In this document: positions 8,273 through 19,668 of the stretch, in pieces | Layout of the letters: every line of letters begins with the position of its first letter | Numbering within the stretch: position 1 is the stretch's first letter | Assembly: GCF_030697375.1 (NCBI RefSeq) | Contig: NZ_JAUYQD010000022.1 | Coordinates: forward strand, 1 to 64,000 | From: Rhodoferax sp. | GTDB lineage: Bacteria > Pseudomonadota > Gammaproteobacteria > Burkholderiales > Burkholderiaceae_C | Reading direction: 5' to 3' | Length of the DNA: 64,000 bases | Notes under the pieces: model-generated | Seen by the model: only the letters and a program-made list of their open reading frames with translations | Database searches by the model: none | Told to the model about the DNA's origin: nothing | Position numbers and translations under genes: made by a program

Positions 8273-9448
8273 TTATTCGAAGTTGACCCACTGCGAGCCG
8301 GCATCGGCCGAGCGGACACAGTTTTCCAGCCAGCGCACACCCTCGGTGCCGGCCTTGATGCCCGGATAGTGGTGTGTCGCGAGGAAGGCGTCATCGCCGC
8401 GGTTTTTAGCGTCGATGGCCTGGGCAATCCAGAGGTAGATATTGGCCCAGCTGTCACCCAAGCCTTCAGTATGCAGTCCACCCATGCGGTCCGCGTTGAG
8501 GCTCTCTGCCTCAAGGTAGGGCATGCCATGGTGCATGGTCATGTTGGGCTGGCCCTGGACTTCATAGATGAGCTGGTCTGGATGTGAATCCGACCATTCC
8601 ACCGAGGCTTTCGAGCCGATGAAGCGGAAGCGTTGCGAGCCCATATTGCCGGCGTTCACCGAGGACACCCACAGGCGACCCACGGCACCGCCTTCGTAGT
8701 GCGTCAGCACATAGGCGTTGTCTTCCAGCGGCGCACGGGTTTTGATAAATGACTGGCGGTCGCACAGCAACTTTTCAATTTTGAGTTCTGGGCAGACCAG
8801 GGTCGCCATGTAGTAGATGTGGGTGCCAATATCGCCGAGCACAAAGGTGGGCCCCGACGTTGCCGGATTGGTCCGCCATTTGACGGCATCGGGTGCACCC
8901 ACATCGTCGCCCGCGTTGAAGCCGTGGGAATACTGGATGTCGACCATGCGAATGTCGCCGAGCATGCCCTTTTTCACCATGGCGGCCATTTGGTGCAACA
9001 GCGGATGGCCGGAGAAGCCGTAGGTCACGCCAACGATCAAACCCTTGGACTCTGCCAGTGCGGCAATCTCATTGCACTCGCGCACGGTGAAGAACAGGGG
9101 CTTCTCGCAGATCACATGCAGACCTGCTTCCAGGCAAGCTTTGGTGATCTCGAAATGGGTGAAGTTTGGCGTTGCAATCGACACCACTTCCACGCCATCT
9201 TCGCGTTGTGCTTCCTTGGCAATCAGTTCTTTGTAGTCGGCGTAGCAGCGCTCACCATCAACGCCAATGTTCACTCCGAAATCGCGGCCACGCGCCACAT
9301 CCAGGTCGAAGGCCCCGCAGACCAGCTTGTACGCCGTGTTGTCCCTGAGCGCGCCCGTGCGGTGTTTGTAGCCCACCTGCCCGGTGCGACCCCCTCCAAC
9401 CATGCCCCAGCGGAGCGGACGTTCAATACTTTTTTCACCATTCAACAT
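8273..9448 (-). CDS. Gfo/Idh/MocA-family oxidoreductase (inositol-dehydrogenase-like)
   Basis: Rossmann N-terminus (RWGMVGGGRTGQVGYKH) and EKP motif (HVICEKPLFF); iol cluster. Confidence 0.85.
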   Translation of the reverse strand: MLNGEKSIERPLRWGMVGGGRTGQVGYKHRTGALRDNTAYKLVCGAFDLDVARGRDFGVNIGVDGERCYADYKELIAKEAQREDGVEVVSIATPNFTHFEITKACLEAGLHVICEKPLFFTVRECNEIAALAESKGLIVGVTYGFSGHPLLHQMAAMVKKGMLGDIRMVDIQYSHGFNAGDDVGAPDAVKWRTNPATSGPTFVLGDIGTHIYYMATLVCPELKIEKLLCDRQSFIKTRAPLEDNAYVLTHYEGGAVGRLWVSSVNAGNMGSQRFRFIGSKASVEWSDSHPDQLIYEVQGQPNMTMHHGMPYLEAESLNADRMGGLHTEGLGDSWANIYLWIAQAIDAKNRGDDAFLATHHYPGIKAGTEGVRWLENCVRSADAGSQWVNFE

Positions 9449-9480
9449 GTCATTTCCTTTTTAAAAAATTAAATACCCAT

Positions 9481-9496
9481 CTGCACCCGGGTGCAG
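9481..9496. promoter_or_regulatory. Perfect 16-bp palindrome, candidate operator of the iol cluster
   Basis: CTGCACCCGGGTGCAG, upstream of the minus-strand oxidoreductase gene. Confidence 0.6.
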
Positions 9497-9574
9497 TTCA
9501 TTGCAAAAAAAATAGCCGGTGCCACGTAGGGTTCGCTTCCGTGAAGCGAACCTGCAGCAGCATTCATGGATGGC

Positions 9575-10360
9575 TCAGTGCAAATGGCTTTCAATCTCTG
9601 CCTCTAGCCCAGCCATCGCCTCGCCACCCGCCATCAGGTCTGTAATCTCTTCGCGGGTTTTCTCACCTTTGCGGAAATCAGCAGCCTTGGCTCCGCGAAT
9701 AAGCACAGCGAAGTGGTCCCCCACTGTGAGCGCATGCATTACTTGATGGGTGATAAAAATGACCGCAATGCCTTTCTTGCGCGCTTGCAAAACAATTCGC
9801 AAGACATGCGCCGCCTCCTTCACACCAAGCGCTGCGGTGGGTTCGTCCAAAATCAACACGCTCGCCCCGAAATGGACGGCGCGTGCAATGGCCAGCGCCT
9901 GACGTTCGCCCCCTGAGAGCCCACCTACCAATCGATTGCCATCATCGATTCGGGTAATACCAAGTTGGCGCATCTCGCGCACGGCGATCTCATTGGCTTT
10001 CTTTCGGTCAAAAACTTCGAAAGGTCCCCAGCGCTTGGTTGGCTCGGCCCCTACAAAGAAGGAGCGACCTATGCTCATCAATGGAAACGTTCCGCCAAAC
10101 TGGTGCACCGTCGCGATGCCGTGGTCGCTGGCGTCGCGGGGGTTGTCGAAAAGTACAGGCTTGCCGTTCATCAACATTTCGCCCGATGTAGGCTTGTGCA
10201 CTCCCGACAAGAGGCGAATCAGTGTTGATTTGCCAGCGCCGTTGTCTCCCAGCAAACACAGCACCTCACCCGCTTTGACCTCGATGGAAATGTCATGCAA
10301 TACATCAATGGGGCCAAAGGATTTGTTGACACCCTTCAGTTGTAATAGTGGAGTAGTCAT
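9575..10360 (-). CDS. Sugar ABC transporter ATP-binding protein
   Basis: Walker A GDNGAGKST, signature LSGGERQALAIARA, Walker B LILDEPTAAL. Confidence 0.93.
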   Translation of the reverse strand: MTTPLLQLKGVNKSFGPIDVLHDISIEVKAGEVLCLLGDNGAGKSTLIRLLSGVHKPTSGEMLMNGKPVLFDNPRDASDHGIATVHQFGGTFPLMSIGRSFFVGAEPTKRWGPFEVFDRKKANEIAVREMRQLGITRIDDGNRLVGGLSGGERQALAIARAVHFGASVLILDEPTAALGVKEAAHVLRIVLQARKKGIAVIFITHQVMHALTVGDHFAVLIRGAKAADFRKGEKTREEITDLMAGGEAMAGLEAEIESHLH

Positions 10361-11430
10361 TTGAGGGCCTTCGGTTTAATACGAGGTGCTGCGTGGGATA
10401 TCGCCATGGCGCGGAAAGTGTTGTTCAGCAGCACCGCTGCCAGCAGTAGAACTCCAATAATCAGGCTGGCCCAATTGGCGTCAAAACCTGTGTAGTAGAT
10501 ACCTTGATTGACGATGGCAAAGGTCATGGTGCCCAGCACAATTCCCACGACCGAGCCATAGCCGCCCGTCAATATCACGCCGCCGATGACGACTGCAATG
10601 ATTGAGTTGAAGATAAAGGATTGACCTGCGGAGACCTGCGCACCGTTGTACAGGATCGCCTGGCACATTCCCACGAACGCGGCACACAGTCCACTGCCCA
10701 TGAACAAAGCAATATTGAGCTTGTCTGTCGGAATGCCGGCGTTGCGCGCACTGACCTTGTCACCACCCAAGGCCAGGATCCAGTTGCCGTATTTTGTGTG
10801 ACCCAAGATGTGGCCAACGAACAGCATCGCGGCAATCCACCACAACAGAATGACTTCGAATTTCCCATCAATGAAGTCACCAAAGACCAACTTTGTGATG
10901 GGATCGCTATTCAGTGCGACGCTCGTGCTGCCCGCCAGGATGACCGTCAGACCCAGCGTCAGGCCCGCGACTGCGAACAATGTGGCGAGGGTCACCACGA
11001 ACGAGGGCAGATCTGTTCGGACAACCAAGTATCCGTTGACGAAGCCCACGGCAAGGCCAAGGGCCAGTGCACTGATGATCCCAACGGGCAAGGGAAAACC
11101 GTAGTGACCGGAGACGATTGCAATCGTCATGGAACTGGCCGGAATTACGCTGCCGATGGAGAGATCCAAATGGCCTGCAATCATGAGCAGCCCGATAGGC
11201 AAGGCAATGATGCCTAGTTCTGCGGCAATATTCAGCCAACTTGCAAAACCACTGGCAGACAGAAACGTCTCACCGCCGAAAATGGAAAAGAAAACGAAGA
11301 CGCACACCAGACCAATGAAAGAACCAGTCTCCGGCCTGCGAATGAGATTCCCAAGTGTGGCTTTTGATTGCCCCTCACTTTCTTTGGCCTTAACCCCGGC
11401 CGGAGGGGAGTTGATTGAGTTCGAGTTCAT
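10357..11430 (-). CDS. Sugar ABC transporter permease (RbsC/XylH family)
   Basis: Hydrophobic; LDLSIGSVIPASSM and GGVILTGGYGSVVGIVLGT motifs; overlaps the ATPase gene. Confidence 0.92.
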   Translation of the reverse strand: MNSNSINSPPAGVKAKESEGQSKATLGNLIRRPETGSFIGLVCVFVFFSIFGGETFLSASGFASWLNIAAELGIIALPIGLLMIAGHLDLSIGSVIPASSMTIAIVSGHYGFPLPVGIISALALGLAVGFVNGYLVVRTDLPSFVVTLATLFAVAGLTLGLTVILAGSTSVALNSDPITKLVFGDFIDGKFEVILLWWIAAMLFVGHILGHTKYGNWILALGGDKVSARNAGIPTDKLNIALFMGSGLCAAFVGMCQAILYNGAQVSAGQSFIFNSIIAVVIGGVILTGGYGSVVGIVLGTMTFAIVNQGIYYTGFDANWASLIIGVLLLAAVLLNNTFRAMAISHAAPRIKPKALK

Positions 11431-11511
11431 GATTTCAGTCGTATGCAAGTTTCAGAAATGTTTTGGATCGTGGCCGGCCCAAGCTCTAGCTTGGGCCGTT
11501 CTAACTGTCGA

Positions 11512-12492
11512 CTAGCGAGCGCCTGCTGTTGCACCAGCGATCGTTGCGTCAACGTTGGACCCATCGACAATGCCAGGGCCCGTCAAAAGGGGTGTGGTGG
11601 GCACTCTCAGGCCATATTTCACGTACCCATTCAACAGCGATACGGCCAGGTAGCCTTGCATATAGGGCTGCTGGTCAATACAGAACAACTGGGTGCCGTC
11701 CTTGATACGCTGCAAATTGGTGGGGTCCATGTCAAAGGTTCCCAGCTTGACCGTCTTGGCCACACCCGCTTGGCTGATGCCCGCGGCTGCACTGGTGGCG
11801 TCACCCGCGCTGATGGTGATTACCCCGTCAATGGTGGTGTCCTTTTGCAAGGCAGCCTTGATGGCCTGAGCGACAGCTGTGGGATTACCGAAGCTGGAGG
11901 AGGGCAGAGGTAGTTGGGTGGATTTGCCACCACCCTTTGCAATGCCGTCAGCGACACCTTTGCAGCGGGCTTCCGTGTTTTTGGCGCCGGGTAGCGTGTT
12001 CACACAAATTACGTTTTTGGCGCCTTGCATGGCAAAGTAGTTGCCACCACCGCTGCCAGCCACGAACTCATCACTTCCAACATAATTTTGTGCGCCCAGA
12101 CGCTTGGCGGCCTCCATGCCTCCCGCGTTGTAAATGATCAGCGGAACGCCAGCAGCCACCACTTCCTTGAATGCAGCGTCCATCGCCTCAGGCACCCAGT
12201 CAGGTCCCACGATAGCGTCTGGCTTTTGACTCAGGGCCGTGCGAATCAGCTTTGCGGCATCGGGGCCCAGGTTGTCATAGTTTTGTGGGCCAAGCCACGT
12301 CACCGTGCCCCCGCCAGCCTTGACCGCCAAGGCGGCGTCATCCGCCCCTTTTTTCACTCGGGACCAAAACGGATCATCTGCCTTGCCTCCAATCACAAAA
12401 ATCTTGGCCCCAGCCGCCATGGCGGTCGTTGCTGTTATTGCAATGGCAGCGGCGATCACCACTGCCTTCACTGTGTTCTTTACTGCTTTCAT
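11512..12492 (-). CDS. Sugar ABC transporter substrate-binding protein (periplasmic-binding type 1)
   Basis: Signal peptide MKAVKNTVKAVVIAAAIAITATTAMAAGA; PBP1-like body. Confidence 0.9.
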   Translation of the reverse strand: MKAVKNTVKAVVIAAAIAITATTAMAAGAKIFVIGGKADDPFWSRVKKGADDAALAVKAGGGTVTWLGPQNYDNLGPDAAKLIRTALSQKPDAIVGPDWVPEAMDAAFKEVVAAGVPLIIYNAGGMEAAKRLGAQNYVGSDEFVAGSGGGNYFAMQGAKNVICVNTLPGAKNTEARCKGVADGIAKGGGKSTQLPLPSSSFGNPTAVAQAIKAALQKDTTIDGVITISAGDATSAAAGISQAGVAKTVKLGTFDMDPTNLQRIKDGTQLFCIDQQPYMQGYLAVSLLNGYVKYGLRVPTTPLLTGPGIVDGSNVDATIAGATAGAR

Positions 12493-12651
12493 CGATTTCT
12501 CCTCGTTCACGATTTCATAGTTACAAAACATGCACAAAGCGCACTGTTGGCGTTTGAAGCAAGAGCGGGATCAACAAACCGAGCTTTAAGCCATTCGAAG
12601 GCGTACCTAACTTAGACCGCTAGAGCACGTTAGTCAATCAATTCTCAATTA

Positions 12652-12669
12652 ACTGCACCCGGTTGCAGT
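12652..12669. promoter_or_regulatory. Near-perfect palindrome of the same family, candidate operator
   Basis: ACTGCACCCGGTTGCAGT, upstream of the minus-strand sugar-binding protein gene. Confidence 0.6.
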
Positions 12670-13224
12670 AGAATGTACAAGACTCTTTCTTTGAGTTTTG
12701 TAGGGGTTTTCCCTATACGATAAGTTGCAATGCAAGTAAAAATAAGAATTAACTTTCCAAAAATTAATAGTAAAAGCAAATAATTTTCATATTTGGTGTT
12801 TTTGAAAACAAACACTTCAAATATCTCTTTGTTAGTTGTAACTATATGTTTTATAACGATTTTTACAAAAATATGGAACTTGTCGGTACTGTTTATCGAA
12901 CTTTGCACTTGGATTTTTTCCGGAAATCCGGTTCGCACAAGAAGATTTTTGAACTGCACGATCCTGAATCAGCGGACCCAGGCTGAGCACAGCAACTTGA
13001 TTTCCCCCGATCAGTTCGCGGTGGCTAAATAGCTGAATTTTCAATGCTAAATGCGGTAAAAACTGCACCCGGGGGCGGAAGCCATTCAAGCATTGAGGTC
13101 ACTGTCCTGGATTTGGTCATGCCTTGTGCCGGAAAGGTATCAAAAAGAAGCTATCCCTATTCCAGGATGCGGTTGCTGGAATCCGGCCGCCACAACACAG
13201 TTAACCTCGATTTCTAGCTATTCC

Positions 13225-13278
13225 GCTATGAAGTTGATAGCTTCTTGCGCAGTATTTGCGGGGCTGGAGGCGACTTTA
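13225..13278 (+). repeat. Dispersed repeat copy A
   Basis: GCTATGAAGTTGATAGCTTCTTGCGCAGTATTTGCGGGGCTGGAGGCGACTTTA. Confidence 0.75.
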
Positions 13279-13596
13279 GACAGCGACCGAGTGCGCTTGA
13301 AGGTTGACCTGCAGCTTCTCGCGCACGGCCCGAAAAATGGCCGCCAGGTTGTCCATGCTGGGTTTGCCAGTGGGCGACAACATGCGGTGCAAACTCTTGC
13401 TTGGTTTTGCGGTCAGTGCCGACAATTGCTCAAAGCCAATGGTCGCGTTGACAAGGTCACGCAGTATCAACCGGGCTGTCTCCGGTCCACCGTTGAGAAA
13501 CAAGGTGGCCGCCTCATCCAATAGCGCCTGCGCAAAAGAGGCATCGCTCTGCACACGTTGTAGGACAGTTTCTTTGAAATTTCGAGTCAATTCCAT
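13276..13596 (-). CDS. HTH transcriptional regulator / putative addiction-module antidote protein
   Basis: MELTRNFKETVLQRVQSDASFAQALLDEAATLFLNGGPETARLILRDLVNATIGFEQLSALTAKPSKSLHRMLSPTGKPSMDNLAAIFRAVREKL, typical COG3636-like antidote. Confidence 0.75.
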   Translation of the reverse strand: MELTRNFKETVLQRVQSDASFAQALLDEAATLFLNGGPETARLILRDLVNATIGFEQLSALTAKPSKSLHRMLSPTGKPSMDNLAAIFRAVREKLQVNLQAHSVAV

Positions 13597-13684
13597 GTTT
13601 TTACCCCTTGTGTTTGCTGGTTAACACATAGGTTACCTTTTTTGTTGTTCTGCCCTTTGCAGTCGTTCCCAAGAAGGCACGCGG

Positions 13685-13780
13685 GACGCAGGGCGGCGTG
13701 GCACTCAACTCCGTTCGTGTCCTCCGCCCTGCGGGCTCCTCCTTGACCTCACTGCGCTGAGCGCCACGCCGCCCTGCGTC
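13685..13780 (-). ncRNA. Hairpin-framed element 1 (candidate structured RNA or mobile palindromic element)
   Basis: 18-bp perfect inverted repeat GACGCAGGGCGGCGTGGC / GCCACGCCGCCCTGCGTC enclosing a core shared with element 2. Confidence 0.5.
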
Positions 13781-13800
13781 GGCCAACATGGCTGGCTGCC

Positions 13801-13898
13801 GTTGCCACTGGGGTGGATGGTGCAGCGAAGTAAAGGAGGAGAACCGGGCGCAGCCCGGTTCGGGGGACATGAGCGGAACCATCCACCCCGGTGGCAAT
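13801..13898 (+). ncRNA. Hairpin-framed element 2 (same core, different stem)
   Basis: 21-bp inverted repeat GTTGCCACTGGGGTGGATGGT / ACCATCCACCCCGGTGGCAAT (2 mismatches) enclosing GCAGCGAAGTAAAGGAGGAG-hairpin-GGGGACATGAGCGGA. Confidence 0.5.
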
Positions 13899-14125
13899 GG
13901 CCCCACCAACCTGCGCCAGCAAGGTCTGCTCCCGCAGGCATTGCAGCTACAGGATGAACCGCCCCGCAGTCTTCGCACGCTGGGCGTGCCAAGGTGAGCC
14001 AGTGCCGCGCCTGGATTTCGCTTGTCTTGTCATGCGCATTTCTTAGCTCCCCCAACCTTGTTTTCTGGCGCTAGCGCTCTGCCCGTTGTACAGTTGCCAC
14101 TTTTGGCAAAAGAAGAGGTTACCTT

Positions 14126-14815
14126 ATGGTGAAAGCTTGGCAAGAATCCACCGTGGTCTACGGTACAGAAGACATTCTGACCAGCCTGTGCAATTCGGTG
14201 ACTCGGGTGCTGACGGTGGCAACCCAGTGCGATATTCACTATTCCGGGATGGTGCAGCGCATCACCAAGACCTGTCTCAAACCCGACATCGGCTGTTTTG
14301 TATTGTTTGACGGGGGTTTTTCCGGCTTGGTGGTGCTCAATTTTTCGGCCGCTACGGCCATGGAGCTCTACGAGAGCTACATGCTGAACATGGGCATGCC
14401 CAAGAGTGAGTTGGCGCTGTCTCACACGTCCGACGAAGTGAGCAACATCATGGGCGAACTCATGAACCAGATCGTGGGGGATTTCACCGGCAAGGTGCGG
14501 CGCGAATTGCAAACCCACATTACCCAAAACCAGCCCAAGATGCTGGTGCTCAACAAACAGGTGGTGCTGAGTGTGGACACCCAGTTGGACAAGCCAGAGT
14601 CCCGGCGCGTGACTTTCTACACCGGCAAAAACAATATCTTCTACCTAGAGCTGGCGATCGATCGCACCGAATTCATCAAGCTGCACGACTTTGAAGTCGC
14701 CGACACCTTGAATCCGGACGAAGTGATCGCGCAGGCCGACGCAGAGCGCAATGTCATTCAGCCCGCGCAAGACAAGAACGACCAGGACGAATTCTTGAAG
14801 TCCTTGGGGATGTAA
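14126..14815 (+). CDS. DUF3334-family protein
   Basis: MVKAWQESTVVYGTEDILTSLCNSVTRVLTVATQCDIHYSGMVQRI..., CheX/DUF3334-like. Confidence 0.7.
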   Translation: MVKAWQESTVVYGTEDILTSLCNSVTRVLTVATQCDIHYSGMVQRITKTCLKPDIGCFVLFDGGFSGLVVLNFSAATAMELYESYMLNMGMPKSELALSHTSDEVSNIMGELMNQIVGDFTGKVRRELQTHITQNQPKMLVLNKQVVLSVDTQLDKPESRRVTFYTGKNNIFYLELAIDRTEFIKLHDFEVADTLNPDEVIAQADAERNVIQPAQDKNDQDEFLKSLGM

Positions 14816-14832
14816 GCCAATGGATAGAGGTC

Positions 14833-14886
14833 GCTATTAAATCAATAGCTTCTCACGCAGTATCCTTGAGGGCTGGAGGCACTTTT
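14833..14886 (+). repeat. Dispersed repeat copy B
   Basis: GCTATTAAATCAATAGCTTCTCACGCAGTATCCTTGAGGGCTGGAGGCACTTTT. Confidence 0.8.
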
Positions 14887-14918
14887 TATTGGGAAAAGTG
14901 CCTCCAGCCCTTTATTTT
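14870..14918. terminator. Bidirectional rho-independent terminator between DUF3334 gene and xylA
   Basis: 17-bp perfect stem GGGCTGGAGGCACTTTT / AAAAGTGCCTCCAGCCC, 7-nt loop, followed by TTTATTTT. Confidence 0.8.
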
Positions 14919-16230
14919 AAATGTAAGTGTTCAGCAGGTTCTCCAAGCGCTCCTGCTGGCCCGATACCGGGCGGGTGTCGGTGTTGCGTTCCACGACTTG
15001 GGCGGCCAATGCGTCCAGGCTCATCTGGCCGTCCAACACGCTCTTGCCCATAGGTGCTTTCCAGCCCGCATAGCGGTCGTCCACCAGTTTTTCCAGTTGG
15101 CCGTCCAGAATCATCTTCTCGGCAATCAGGAGCGCGCGGGCTGATACGTCCATGCCGCCAATGTGGCCGTGGAACATGTCCTCGGGGTCTATGGACTGGC
15201 GGCGCACCTTGGAGTCAAAGTTCACGCCCCCGGTGGTGAAGCCCCCGCCTTTCAGGATGAGGTACATCGCCAGCGCGGTTTCCGGGATGTTGTTGGGGAA
15301 CTGGTCGGTGTCCCAGGCGCATTGCATGTCGCCGCGGTTCATGTCGATGGAGCCGAAGAGGCCCAGGTCCACGGCGGTGGCAATCTCGTGCTCGAAACTG
15401 TGCCCGGCGAGTGTGGCGTGGTTGGCCTCGATGTTGACCTTGATTTCCTTTTCCAGGCCGTAGCGGCACAAAAAGCCGTAGACCGTGGCGGTGTCAAAGT
15501 CGTACTGGTGTTTGGACGGTTCGCGGGGCTTGGGTTCGAGCAGGATGGTGCCCTTGAAGCCGATCTTGTGCTTGTACTCCACCACCATGTTCAAAAAGCG
15601 CCCCATCTGGTCCAGCTCCTGGCCCATGCGGGTGTTGAGCAAGGTCTCGTAGCCTTCGCGCCCGCCCCACAGCACGTAGTTGGCGCCGCCCAGCTTCAAG
15701 GTGGCGTCCATGGCTTCCTTCACCTGCAGGGCGCCCAGCGCAAAGATCTCGGGGTTGGGGTTGGTGGCCGCGCCCGACATGAAGCGGCGGTGGCTGAACA
15801 GGTTGGCCGTGCCCCACAGCAGCTTCATGCCGGTGGCTTCCTGCTTGGCAGCGAGCACATCGACCATGGCGCGCAGCTTGTTCACGCTGTCGCGTGGGGT
15901 GGCGCCTTCGGGGGCCACGTCGCGGTCGTGGAAGCAGTAGTAGGGCGCGCCCAGCTTGGCGAAGAACTCAAACGCCACATCGGCCTTGGCCTTGGCGGCC
16001 TCCATGGGGTCGGCCATGTGCTGCCAGGGGCGCTGGAAGCTGTCGCCGCCAAAGGGGTCCGAGCCATTCCAGCAGAAGCTGTGCCAGTAACACACGGCAA
16101 AGCGCAAATGCTCCTCCATGCGTTTGCCCAGCACCAGGCGGTCTTTGTCGTACCACTTGAAGGCCAGCGGGTTGGCGGAGTCGGCGCCTTCAAAGGCGAT
16201 GGGGGCGATGTTGGAGAAATAAGAAGTCAT
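14917..16230 (-). CDS. xylA: Xylose isomerase
   Basis: 437 aa; [90 protein letters not shown]. Confidence 0.97.
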
Positions 16231-16275
16231 GGTGGTCTCGGATGAAAAGAGCAGGGAGGTCGTTGAGTTAGGGAG

Positions 16276-17724
16276 TTATGCAGGGCGGTACAGGCTGCGG
16301 AAATGGGCGTAGCGGGTGGCCAGCAGGTCCTGCTCGGCCGCATCGGGGTGGTAGCTGGCTTCCACCTCGGGGCTCCGACAGACGGCGCCGGGGTCGGCCC
16401 CCGTGGCCAGCCAGGCCAGACGGGCGGCGCCCAGGGCCCCGCCCACGGCCGAGCTGCCATGGGTGACGATGTCCACGTTCAGGGCCGAGGCCAGCAGCTG
16501 CGCCCAAAAGGCGCTGCGCGCACCACCGCCCACCAGGGAGAGGCGGTTGACCGTGCTGCCGGCGGCATGGAGTGCGGCCAGGCCGTCTTTCAGGCCAAAG
16601 GTCACCCCTTCGATGACCGCGTAGCCCAGCCGGGCCGCGTCGGTATCAAAGCTCAGGCCGTGCAGGCTGCCGCGCACACTCGCATCGTTGTGCGGGGTGC
16701 GTTCACCGCCCAGGTAGGGCAAAAACAGAGGGGAGGCAGCGCGCTCGGCCAACGACAGGGCGGCGGCTTTTTCGGCCACCGCGCCGGCATGGGGGGCGCC
16801 CAGCAGGTCGCTCACCCACTGCAAGGCGCTGGCGGCCGAGAGCATCACACTCATCTGGTGCCACTGCTGCGGCAGTGCGTGGCAAAACGCGTGGGTGGCG
16901 CTGGCGGCGTTGGGCTGGTAACTGGGTGTCACCACAAACAGCACGCCGCTGGTGCCCAGGGACAAAAAGCCCTGGCCCGCCTGCACCGCGCCCATGCCCA
17001 CGGCGCTGGCGGCGTTGTCGCCCGCGCCACCGGCCACCACGATGCCTGGGGGCAGGCCCAGGGCCTGCGCCACGTCGGCCCGCAGGGTGCCACCGGGCTC
17101 GCTGCCTTCCACCAGGCGGGGCATATGGGCCTGGGTGAGCTGGGTGAGGGCCAGGAGTTCGTCCGACCAGGCGCGCTTTTGCACGTCCAGCCACAGGGTG
17201 CCGCTGGCGTCCGACATGTCGCTGATGTACTCGCCGGTCAGCATCAGGCGCACATAGTCCTTGGGCAGCAGCACCTTGGCCACACGCTGGAAGAGTTGGG
17301 GCTCATGGCGGGCCACCCACAGCAGCTTGGGGGCGGTAAAGCCGGGCATGGCCAGGCTGCCCGCCAACGCGGGCAACTGGGGCAGGGCGGCCATCATGTC
17401 CACACACTCCTGCGCGGCACGGGTGTCGTTCCACAAAATGGCGGGGCGCAGCACCTGGTCTTGCGCGTCCAGCAGCACCGCGCCGTGCATCTGGCCCGAC
17501 AGGCCGATGCCTTGCGCGGCGGCGTACTCCGCCGGGTGCATCTCACGCAGTTGGGCCAGGGCGGTGCAGGTGGCGGTCCACCAGTCCTGCGGCGACTGCT
17601 CGCTGTGGCCGGGGTGGGGGCGTGACACGGTGAGCGCCGAGCCGCAAGTGCCCACCACGGTGTGGTCGGGGGCCAAAAGCAGCACCTTGACTTCCGAGGT
17701 GCCTATATCAATGCCAATAAACAT
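16276..17724 (-). CDS. xylB: Xylulokinase
   Basis: FGGY kinase; MFIGIDIGTSEVKVLLL, LSGQMHGAVLLD, GGERTPHND. Confidence 0.96.
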   Translation of the reverse strand: MFIGIDIGTSEVKVLLLAPDHTVVGTCGSALTVSRPHPGHSEQSPQDWWTATCTALAQLREMHPAEYAAAQGIGLSGQMHGAVLLDAQDQVLRPAILWNDTRAAQECVDMMAALPQLPALAGSLAMPGFTAPKLLWVARHEPQLFQRVAKVLLPKDYVRLMLTGEYISDMSDASGTLWLDVQKRAWSDELLALTQLTQAHMPRLVEGSEPGGTLRADVAQALGLPPGIVVAGGAGDNAASAVGMGAVQAGQGFLSLGTSGVLFVVTPSYQPNAASATHAFCHALPQQWHQMSVMLSAASALQWVSDLLGAPHAGAVAEKAAALSLAERAASPLFLPYLGGERTPHNDASVRGSLHGLSFDTDAARLGYAVIEGVTFGLKDGLAALHAAGSTVNRLSLVGGGARSAFWAQLLASALNVDIVTHGSSAVGGALGAARLAWLATGADPGAVCRSPEVEASYHPDAAEQDLLATRYAHFRSLYRPA

Positions 17725-17726
17725 AT

Positions 17727-18866
17727 TTATTCCGTGAGGCTGGGGTTGGGAGAGGATTGCGGCGTGTGCATGGGGCGCAGTTCGTGGTGCAGCACCAGCG
17801 CGGCGGCGCCCACGGCCGAGGCCTGCAGCCCGTACCGGGCGGTGCGCACGGGTGGGGGCGCCATGCCTGCACTGCGGGCATAGGCCTGCAGGGTTTGCGT
17901 GGCGGTGGCCACGATGGACGGGTACCGTTCACACGACGGGCCGCCCACCACCAGCACGCTGGGGTTGAAGGTGGTCCACAGGTTTTGCAGCACCACGCCC
18001 AAGTAGCGCCCGCCCTGCGCGGGCTCGGCCAACTGGTCCAGGGCGCGTGCGCCAAAAAAGGTTTCGGCGCAGCCCCTGCGGCCGCAGGAACACAAAGGCC
18101 CGTCGATCTGCAAAATGCTGTGGCCAATTTCGCCCGCCATGCCCTGCATACCAGTGAACAGGCGGTCGTTGAGCACAATGCCCGCGCCCACACCCGCGCC
18201 GCAGGTGACAAAGATGAGGGACGCGTGGGCATCGCCTTCGAGGAATTCGTATTCGCTCAGCGCGGCGGTGTCCGCTTCATTTTGCACATGCACGGCCAGC
18301 GGCGGCAGGCCCGCCTGGGCCAGGGCGGTAGTGATGAGGGGCTGGAAATCCACATTGCGCCAGCCCAGGTTGGGGGCAAAACGCAGCATGCCCGTGGCCT
18401 CGTCAAAGGCGCCCGGCAGGCCCACACCCACGCCAAATACCTGCACCTGCTGTTGTCCCAATTGGGCATGCGCGCGCGCCACCAACTGGGCGGCCTGGTG
18501 GCAGACCGCTTGCGGGCTGGTGCCCAGCAGGGGTTCTTCCATGGAGCAAAACACCTGCCCGGTGAGGGACACCCCCACCACGCGCAAGGCCTCCACGGCC
18601 ACCTCCACGCCAATCATGCCGCGCGTGCGGCCGTCCAGTTGCAAGGGGGTGGACGGGCGGCCCATGCCCGCAGCTGCGGTGACGTCGTCCTCGGTCAACC
18701 AGCCCTCCTCGATCAGCTCGCGCACCAGCAGGCTCACGGTGGACTTGGTCAGCCCGCTGGCCTGCGCCAACTGCGCCCGGGACAGGCCGGGGCGGCTGCG
18801 CAGCAGGCGCAAGAGCACGCTGCGGTTGATGCGTTTGACAAGTTGTTGGTCGCCGGTGGTTTTCAT
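17727..18866 (-). CDS. ROK-family transcriptional regulator (XylR-type repressor)
   Basis: N-terminal HTH (GLSRAQLAQASGLTKSTVSLLVRELIEEGWL) and ROK domain (CSCGRRGCAETF); in the xyl operon. Confidence 0.9.
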   Translation of the reverse strand: MKTTGDQQLVKRINRSVLLRLLRSRPGLSRAQLAQASGLTKSTVSLLVRELIEEGWLTEDDVTAAAGMGRPSTPLQLDGRTRGMIGVEVAVEALRVVGVSLTGQVFCSMEEPLLGTSPQAVCHQAAQLVARAHAQLGQQQVQVFGVGVGLPGAFDEATGMLRFAPNLGWRNVDFQPLITTALAQAGLPPLAVHVQNEADTAALSEYEFLEGDAHASLIFVTCGAGVGAGIVLNDRLFTGMQGMAGEIGHSILQIDGPLCSCGRRGCAETFFGARALDQLAEPAQGGRYLGVVLQNLWTTFNPSVLVVGGPSCERYPSIVATATQTLQAYARSAGMAPPPVRTARYGLQASAVGAAALVLHHELRPMHTPQSSPNPSLTE

Positions 18867-18888
18867 GGTGTTGGAAGCGGCGCAGCAC

Positions 18889-19668
18889 TCACAGGCTGTG
18901 GGTCTGCGTTTTGCCTTCGGGTTGTTTGCCAGCGATGATCATGCCAAGAACTTCGTCCTCGGTGACATCGGCGGTGCGGTAGCTACCCACCAATTTGCCG
19001 TTTTTCATGACCGCCAGTCGGTCGCTCAGGCCAAACACGTCGGGCATGTCGTGGGTGATCAGGAAAATGCCCACGCCCTCGGCCTTGAGCTGGCGCACCA
19101 GCTGGCCCACCATCGCGGTTTCCTCGGGGCCCAGCGCGGCCGTGGGCTCGTCCATGATGAGGATCTTGGCGTTGAAGTAAATCGCCCGCGAAATCGCCAC
19201 CACCTGGCGCTGCCCGCCCGAGAGGCGGCGCACGGGGGTGCGCACGTTTTTGAAGTTCTTGTTCAGCCGCAGGAACACCTTGCGGGCGTGGGAGTCCATG
19301 CGGTGGTCGTCCAGCGTGTTCCAGCGGGTGAGCAGCTCGCGGCCTAAAAACAGATTGGCCACGGCGTCCAGGTTGTCGGCCAGCGCCAGGGTCTGGTAGA
19401 TGGACTCGATGCCGCAGCGTTGCGCGTCCACCGGGGTGCGGATGTGGGCCTTCTCGCCGTTGATCAGCACCTCGCCGCTGTCGATGGGGTAGGCACCGGC
19501 CAGCATTTTCATCAGGGTGGATTTTCCGGCGCCGTTGTGCCCCAGCAGGGCCACCACTTCGCCGGGGTAGAGCGTGAGGCTCACATCGTCCACGGCCTGC
19601 ACGCCGCCAAAGGCTTTGCCGATCTGGCGCATCTCCACCAGCGCCTGAGGTGTATTCACGGTGCTCAT
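18889..19668 (-). CDS. xylG: Xylose ABC transporter ATP-binding protein
   Basis: Walker [24 protein letters not shown]; operon context; single NBD-length protein. Confidence 0.85.

Follow-up and report, generated by a model that had tools for sequence, protein, structure and literature searches.

Two inverted hairpins in a Rhodoferax genome represent an apparently undescribed, large family of dispersed repeats with a conserved core and covarying stems

Two hairpins with similar cores and dissimilar stems lie side by side in the window, the whole stretch of 64,000 nucleotides of Rhodoferax sp. DNA that was analyzed. What are these elements, and what keeps them folded? The original prediction of two adjacent inverted hairpins was confirmed, with inverted repeats at 13685-13780 and 13798-13901, and the cores, which had been said to align, indeed match each other in inverted orientation. 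The elements form the two halves of a composite some 280 bp long, with the following features:

13654..13935, no strand: composite unit (element 1, spacer, element 2, outer flanks); flanks shared with other copies, limits approximate
13685..13780, minus strand: element 1, class I hairpin; covariance model match of 85.6 bits, folding z -9.2 as RNA
13756..13780, minus strand: 5' arm (sense strand) of the outer stem P1 of element 1, pairs with 13685-13709
13685..13709, minus strand: 3' arm (sense strand) of the outer stem P1 of element 1, pairs with 13756-13780
13736..13755, minus strand: 5' core of element 1, GCAGTGAGGTCAAGGAGGAG
13727..13735, minus strand: inner hairpin P2 of element 1 (CCC GCA GGG)
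13710..13726, minus strand: 3' core of element 1, CGGAGGACACGAACGGA
13781..13797, no strand: spacer separating the two 5' ends; 17 nt long, against a usual length of about 43 nt in the repeat family
13798..13901, plus strand: element 2, class I hairpin; covariance model match at 13797-13902 of 115.6 bits, folding z -7.8 as DNA and -8.8 as RNA
13798..13821, plus strand: 5' arm of the outer stem P1 of element 2, pairs with 13878-13901
13878..13901, plus strand: 3' arm of the outer stem P1 of element 2, pairs with 13798-13821
13822..13841, plus strand: 5' core of element 2, GCAGCGAAGTAAAGGAGGAG
13842..13860, plus strand: inner hairpin P2 of element 2 with a C(GCA)G triloop
13861..13877, plus strand: 3' core of element 2, CGGGGGACATGAGCGGA

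The stems are real, but the lengths first given for them (18 and 21 bp) are too short: as RNA, and counting G.U, they comprise 25 and 24 pairs. On either strand, every one of 200 shuffles with preserved dinucleotides folds worse than the window hairpins (z -5.6 to -9.2). Six other copies of the composite were found at unrelated places in the same genome, whole on C7, C64 and C77 and partial or truncated on C81, C23 and C91:111k. Their stems are closely similar, and hence plain duplication occurs in this genome, which also carries many copies with different stems. Identical stems without compensatory changes had been named as the outcome that would speak against selection on structure; this outcome did not occur, although some copies here are plain duplicates. 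The copy on C81 (G000:C81:40007-40102 and the following bases; L018, L176) has lost element 2 and kept the outer flanks, the pattern expected from slippage across a hairpin.

Copies with the same core are abundant elsewhere, so the other refuting outcome, a lack of further copies, did not occur either. Searching this genome with a pattern of both core halves gave 15 copies, and the reversed control gave none. With the strict core pattern, 52 of 301 sampled genomes of the same taxonomic family were positive and the control gave 0 matches. Scanning species genomes yielded at least 118 loci, most of them in Comamonadaceae and other Burkholderiales, and some in Luteimonas and Pseudoxanthomonas. 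A covariance model built from 32 diverse copies gave 28 matches in this genome; among 369 genomes of the class it matched only in the host's own family and one other, f14, in a scan that scored few candidates per genome, so that a missing match says little. Judging by the named loci in Luteimonas and Pseudoxanthomonas, f14 is probably Xanthomonadaceae. A looser core pattern also matched in two other families of the order. Copies in family f194 (G695, G782, G825, G930, G959) combine the same core with larger inner hairpins and a wider core spacing in pairs than in the family of the window; no GNA triloops were seen among the f194 copies listed. Four plasmid records, in Variovorax and Burkholderia, carry copies, and none was found in the phages and viral contigs searched. 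No Rfam family's gathering threshold was reached, consistent with the earlier failure to recognize a named family, and no description of the hairpins was found in open papers. Taken together, the hairpins are members of a large, dispersed and apparently undescribed repeat family of roughly 90-110 bases in Burkholderiales and some Xanthomonadaceae. One study lists 140 significant spaced motif pairs for Rhodoferax ferrireducens T118, the top value of all its genomes, and its text does not explain them (PMC5217627); this hairpin family may be their cause.

The fold has a set order: outer stem P1, one core half, a variable inner hairpin P2 and the other core half. P1 measures 23 bp in nearly all copies, with several pair types at almost every position. 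The conserved, purine-rich internal-loop core reads RGTMAAGGAGGAG / CGGGGGACAYG, to which class I, the type in the window, adds a GYGA/GARC block. In the model alignment 95.2% of cells are paired, compared with 67% in shuffled and 37-41% in slid controls, and double changes occur at 32 of 36 pairs. This covariation far above both controls, together with the abundance of copies in which the same core sits in different but paired stems, supports the original reading of the pattern as selection on RNA or DNA secondary structure. The core, however, is not unpaired as had been proposed. It holds a short helix in which CAG-Y-GA-R-GT lies against AC-A-Y-GA-R-CGG, and its R:Y position (A:T 121, G:C 49, other 6) and Y:R position (C:G 115, T:A 46, other 15) covary. 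As we read the alignment, these pairs would flank G.A/A.G mismatches, and a bulged A would also be present. The purine stretches AAGGAGGAG and CGGGGG lie either side of P2 and could possibly form a G-quadruplex. P2 is closed by a C(GNA)G triloop in 116 of 169 copies; such triloops are very stable in DNA. AAGGAGG was considered as an SD-like sequence with a start codon behind it and rejected: some copies have ACG in place of the ATG that follows, and the exchange goes along with a change in the pairing partner, so that the ATG is not a start codon.

Class II elements are shorter (88-92 nt) and lack GYGA on one side and GARC on the other. Within the genus, 43 of 61 genomes contain them, with up to 45 copies. 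Most are intergenic: by a crude codon test, 35 of 42 examined lie outside an open frame and 7 in frame in genes. Insertion in frame was seen for class II only. In this genome one helicase gene, which we take to be hrpA-like from its sequence, contains two:

G000:C7:28088-28179 and C7:28982-29070 (L187, L196): two class II elements in frame in one hrpA-like helicase gene

Further in-frame cases occur in this genome, and overall both hrpA-like and other genes are affected. At hrpA site 1 a class II element is present in 6 of 14 congeners and missing in 8. The stems of the six site-1 orthologues differ yet pair. Compared for every pair of species and every stem position, they show 39 double, 60 single-compatible and 34 non-paired differences, concentrated mid-stem, and these stems contain 15 G·U against 1 A·C. 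Site 2 is filled in three genomes; the element is antisense in this genome and has the sense orientation in the two other species. No clear target site duplication, as expected of a MITE of a DDE transposon, was found at site 2, where the alignment is ambiguous. Two congeners carry a copy in the position of the element at C7:28088-28179, which has the opposite orientation to theirs.

Clean empty sites are established for class II only. For class I, the flanks of the C77 copy gave no contiguous empty site in congeners. The window unit itself is apparently flanked by divergent genes and sits upstream of the one that encodes a DUF3334 protein. Two congeners possess this gene without the unit upstream, but the neighborhood differs there too. 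The DUF3334 protein (14126-14815) has a weak CheX match and is patchy, occurring in 4 of 31 relatives' genomes searched. The minus strand from 8273 to 19668 carries a sugar-use cluster with ABC transporter genes, a xylose-isomerase-like protein, an FGGY kinase and a ROK regulator. A separate short repeat resembling AGCTAC...TAGTAGC / ATAGCT-type motifs occurs at 13200-13240 and also flanks the copies on C7 and C77. Its flank version matches many places in congeners, and it resembles ATAGCT(N)22CAAAAG, a motif reported for Polaromonas (PMC5217627).

Which strand folds can be read from the imperfect pairs. P1 stems contain 292 G·U pairs and 34 A·C mismatches (class II stems overall: 92 and 17). 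Strand-symmetric mutation alone would give similar numbers of both, and therefore the core-sense strand must fold. When both strands are folded as RNA, the sense strand is the more stable one in 145 of 149 cases. This asymmetry bears on a purely mutational origin of the covariation, in which template switching between the hairpin arms during replication keeps correcting the arms. Long near-perfect palindromes, the mid-stem concentration of changes in the hrpA orthologues and the C81 copy without element 2 are all in its favor, and palindrome correction in replication could imitate part of the covariation. Yet such correction gives no reason for G.U to outnumber A.C on the core-sense strand, and preserved structure is suggested both by the covarying Y:R and R:Y core pairs and by class II, which has lost GYGA and GARC together, one from each side. 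As the full explanation, we regard template switching as unlikely.

The preference for one strand also invites an RNA reading, in which the hairpins work in transcripts as an mRNA 3'-end stabilizer, a terminator aid or a protein- or ligand-binding RNA with the purine internal loop as binding site. The strong excess of G.U over A.C and the G.A mismatches next to covarying pairs fit this well. AAGGAGG, which presumably could pair with the 16S 3' end, was counted in its favor, as was the position of the units close to gene ends, with few between divergent genes (30 codirectional, 16 convergent and 3 divergent neighbors by a crude gene finder). But the G.U bias is about equally strong in copies antisense to both neighbors (61 G·U, 6 A·C) and in copies sense to two co-directional neighbors (95 and 6). 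Read-through transcription alone is thus an insufficient cause, and the bias does not separate single-stranded DNA from independently made RNA. The arrangement of class I speaks against transcripts as well. According to the covariance model, the 5' ends face each other (-/+) in 56 of 57 two-element units, the opposite orientation and set spacing of BIME/REPIN-type pairs, with gaps mostly of 31-58 nt that cluster at about 43 nt; the elements of one unit thereby face apart over a short spacer. The two stems within a unit are never alike (identity at most 61%). A conserved hairpin in the spacer was considered and is not general, given a mean z of -0.6 and z < -2 in 10 of 49. Base composition past the 3' arm shows no T enrichment, so the stem has no T-run of an intrinsic terminator after it. 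The 122 flanking genes include no common neighbor and share neither a function nor a transposase among the commonest families, and class II elements sit within coding genes in either orientation. We consider a role in transcripts rather doubtful.

Among known systems, the hairpin family works most like REP/BIME units, and class II like the Rickettsia palindromic elements (RPEs), although the hairpins carry the tag of neither above chance at the 5' foot. With REP/BIME/REPIN repeats, the partners of RAYT (TnpA-REP) enzymes, the family shares short interspersed palindromes that are mostly intergenic and often form opposite-oriented pairs of different hairpins; it differs in being longer, in having its core inside the stem and not as a tag at the foot, in stems that vary by copy, and in lacking an adjacent RAYT and GTAG. 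The view that the hairpins are the REP sequences of a resident RAYT would account for palindromic, multi-copy, oppositely oriented pairs, and RAYT genes are present in most genomes tested. They occur, though, in genomes with and without copies, the copy-bearing genomes G097 and G279 have no Y1_Tnp match, and no covariance model match was found in 32 Y1_Tnp/RAYT regions; RAYT was accordingly rejected as the mobilizer. At the 5' foot of 169 copies no tag exceeds chance (GTAG 6, expected 6.0; GTGG 14, expected 12.0; CGTC 9, expected 11.4), and CGTC on the 3' side was found in 19 of 169, a raw count without a computed expectation. The copies are also longer than the 21-65 nt of REPs (PMC6006769). 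We judge this origin very improbable.

RPEs can sit in frame inside protein-coding genes, an ability that the hairpin family, through class II, shares with RPE and CGTC repeats. It differs from them by the absence of a CGTC tag at the 5' foot, a much longer conserved core, different bacteria and the 5'-to-5' pairs of class I. For CGTC-tagged repeats no dedicated transposase is known (PMC3733652). Integron attC sites likewise combine conserved protein-contact parts with variable folded parts and are active as a folded single strand. Here, the column composition of the stems revealed no conserved boxes of the attC core-site type (RYYYAAC/GTTRRRY), no R/L boxes were seen, and the hairpins form no arrays, being dispersed singly or as inverted pairs.

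Our preferred reading, to which we assign a probability of about 0.6, is that the window holds one composite of REP/RPE-like mobile non-coding palindromes whose folded strand is recognized by a putative enzyme. Copies are dispersed, class II has inserted at sites empty in relatives, class I elements pair 5' to 5', matched changes keep the fold, and one strand is preferred. Dispersal, empty sites and near-identical composites make the mobility of the family well supported. Strand-specific folding and an almost invariant core suggest recognition of the folded strand. A putative enzyme would bind the folded sense strand, probably as single-stranded DNA, and would move the element as TnpA-REP moves REPs; we favor such an enzyme by analogy with REPs, whose recognition is strand specific on folded single-stranded DNA hairpins (PMC8266576, PMC3733652). 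The core would be its recognition site, which would explain why the core hardly varies while stems are free to vary provided they pair. The single-stranded DNA step is the weakest link of this mechanism. Tolerance of G.U and loops rich in G.A are no less typical of RNA, no GNA triloops were seen in the f194 copies listed, and the clean empty sites come from class II only. Nor was a mobilizing gene found: no transposase among the commonest families is shared by the 122 flanking genes, and none of the 32 Y1_Tnp/RAYT regions has a copy beside it. More tentatively, the family might be a new superfamily in which a non-RAYT enzyme reads the purine loop AAGGAGGAG / CGGGGG. This loop might form a two-tier G-quadruplex or a G.A helix with a hairpin on it, and the elements would be able to settle in frame in genes and then preserve their fold through compensatory evolution in place.

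The repeat family is apparently widespread and lies outside Rfam. One core is set in widely differing stems, and between orthologous copies the two arms change in concert, also where these copies lie within a coding gene. It thus becomes possible to test whether selection on a folded strand or replication errors maintain short bacterial palindromes, and the family provides a precise bait to find the mobilizing enzyme.
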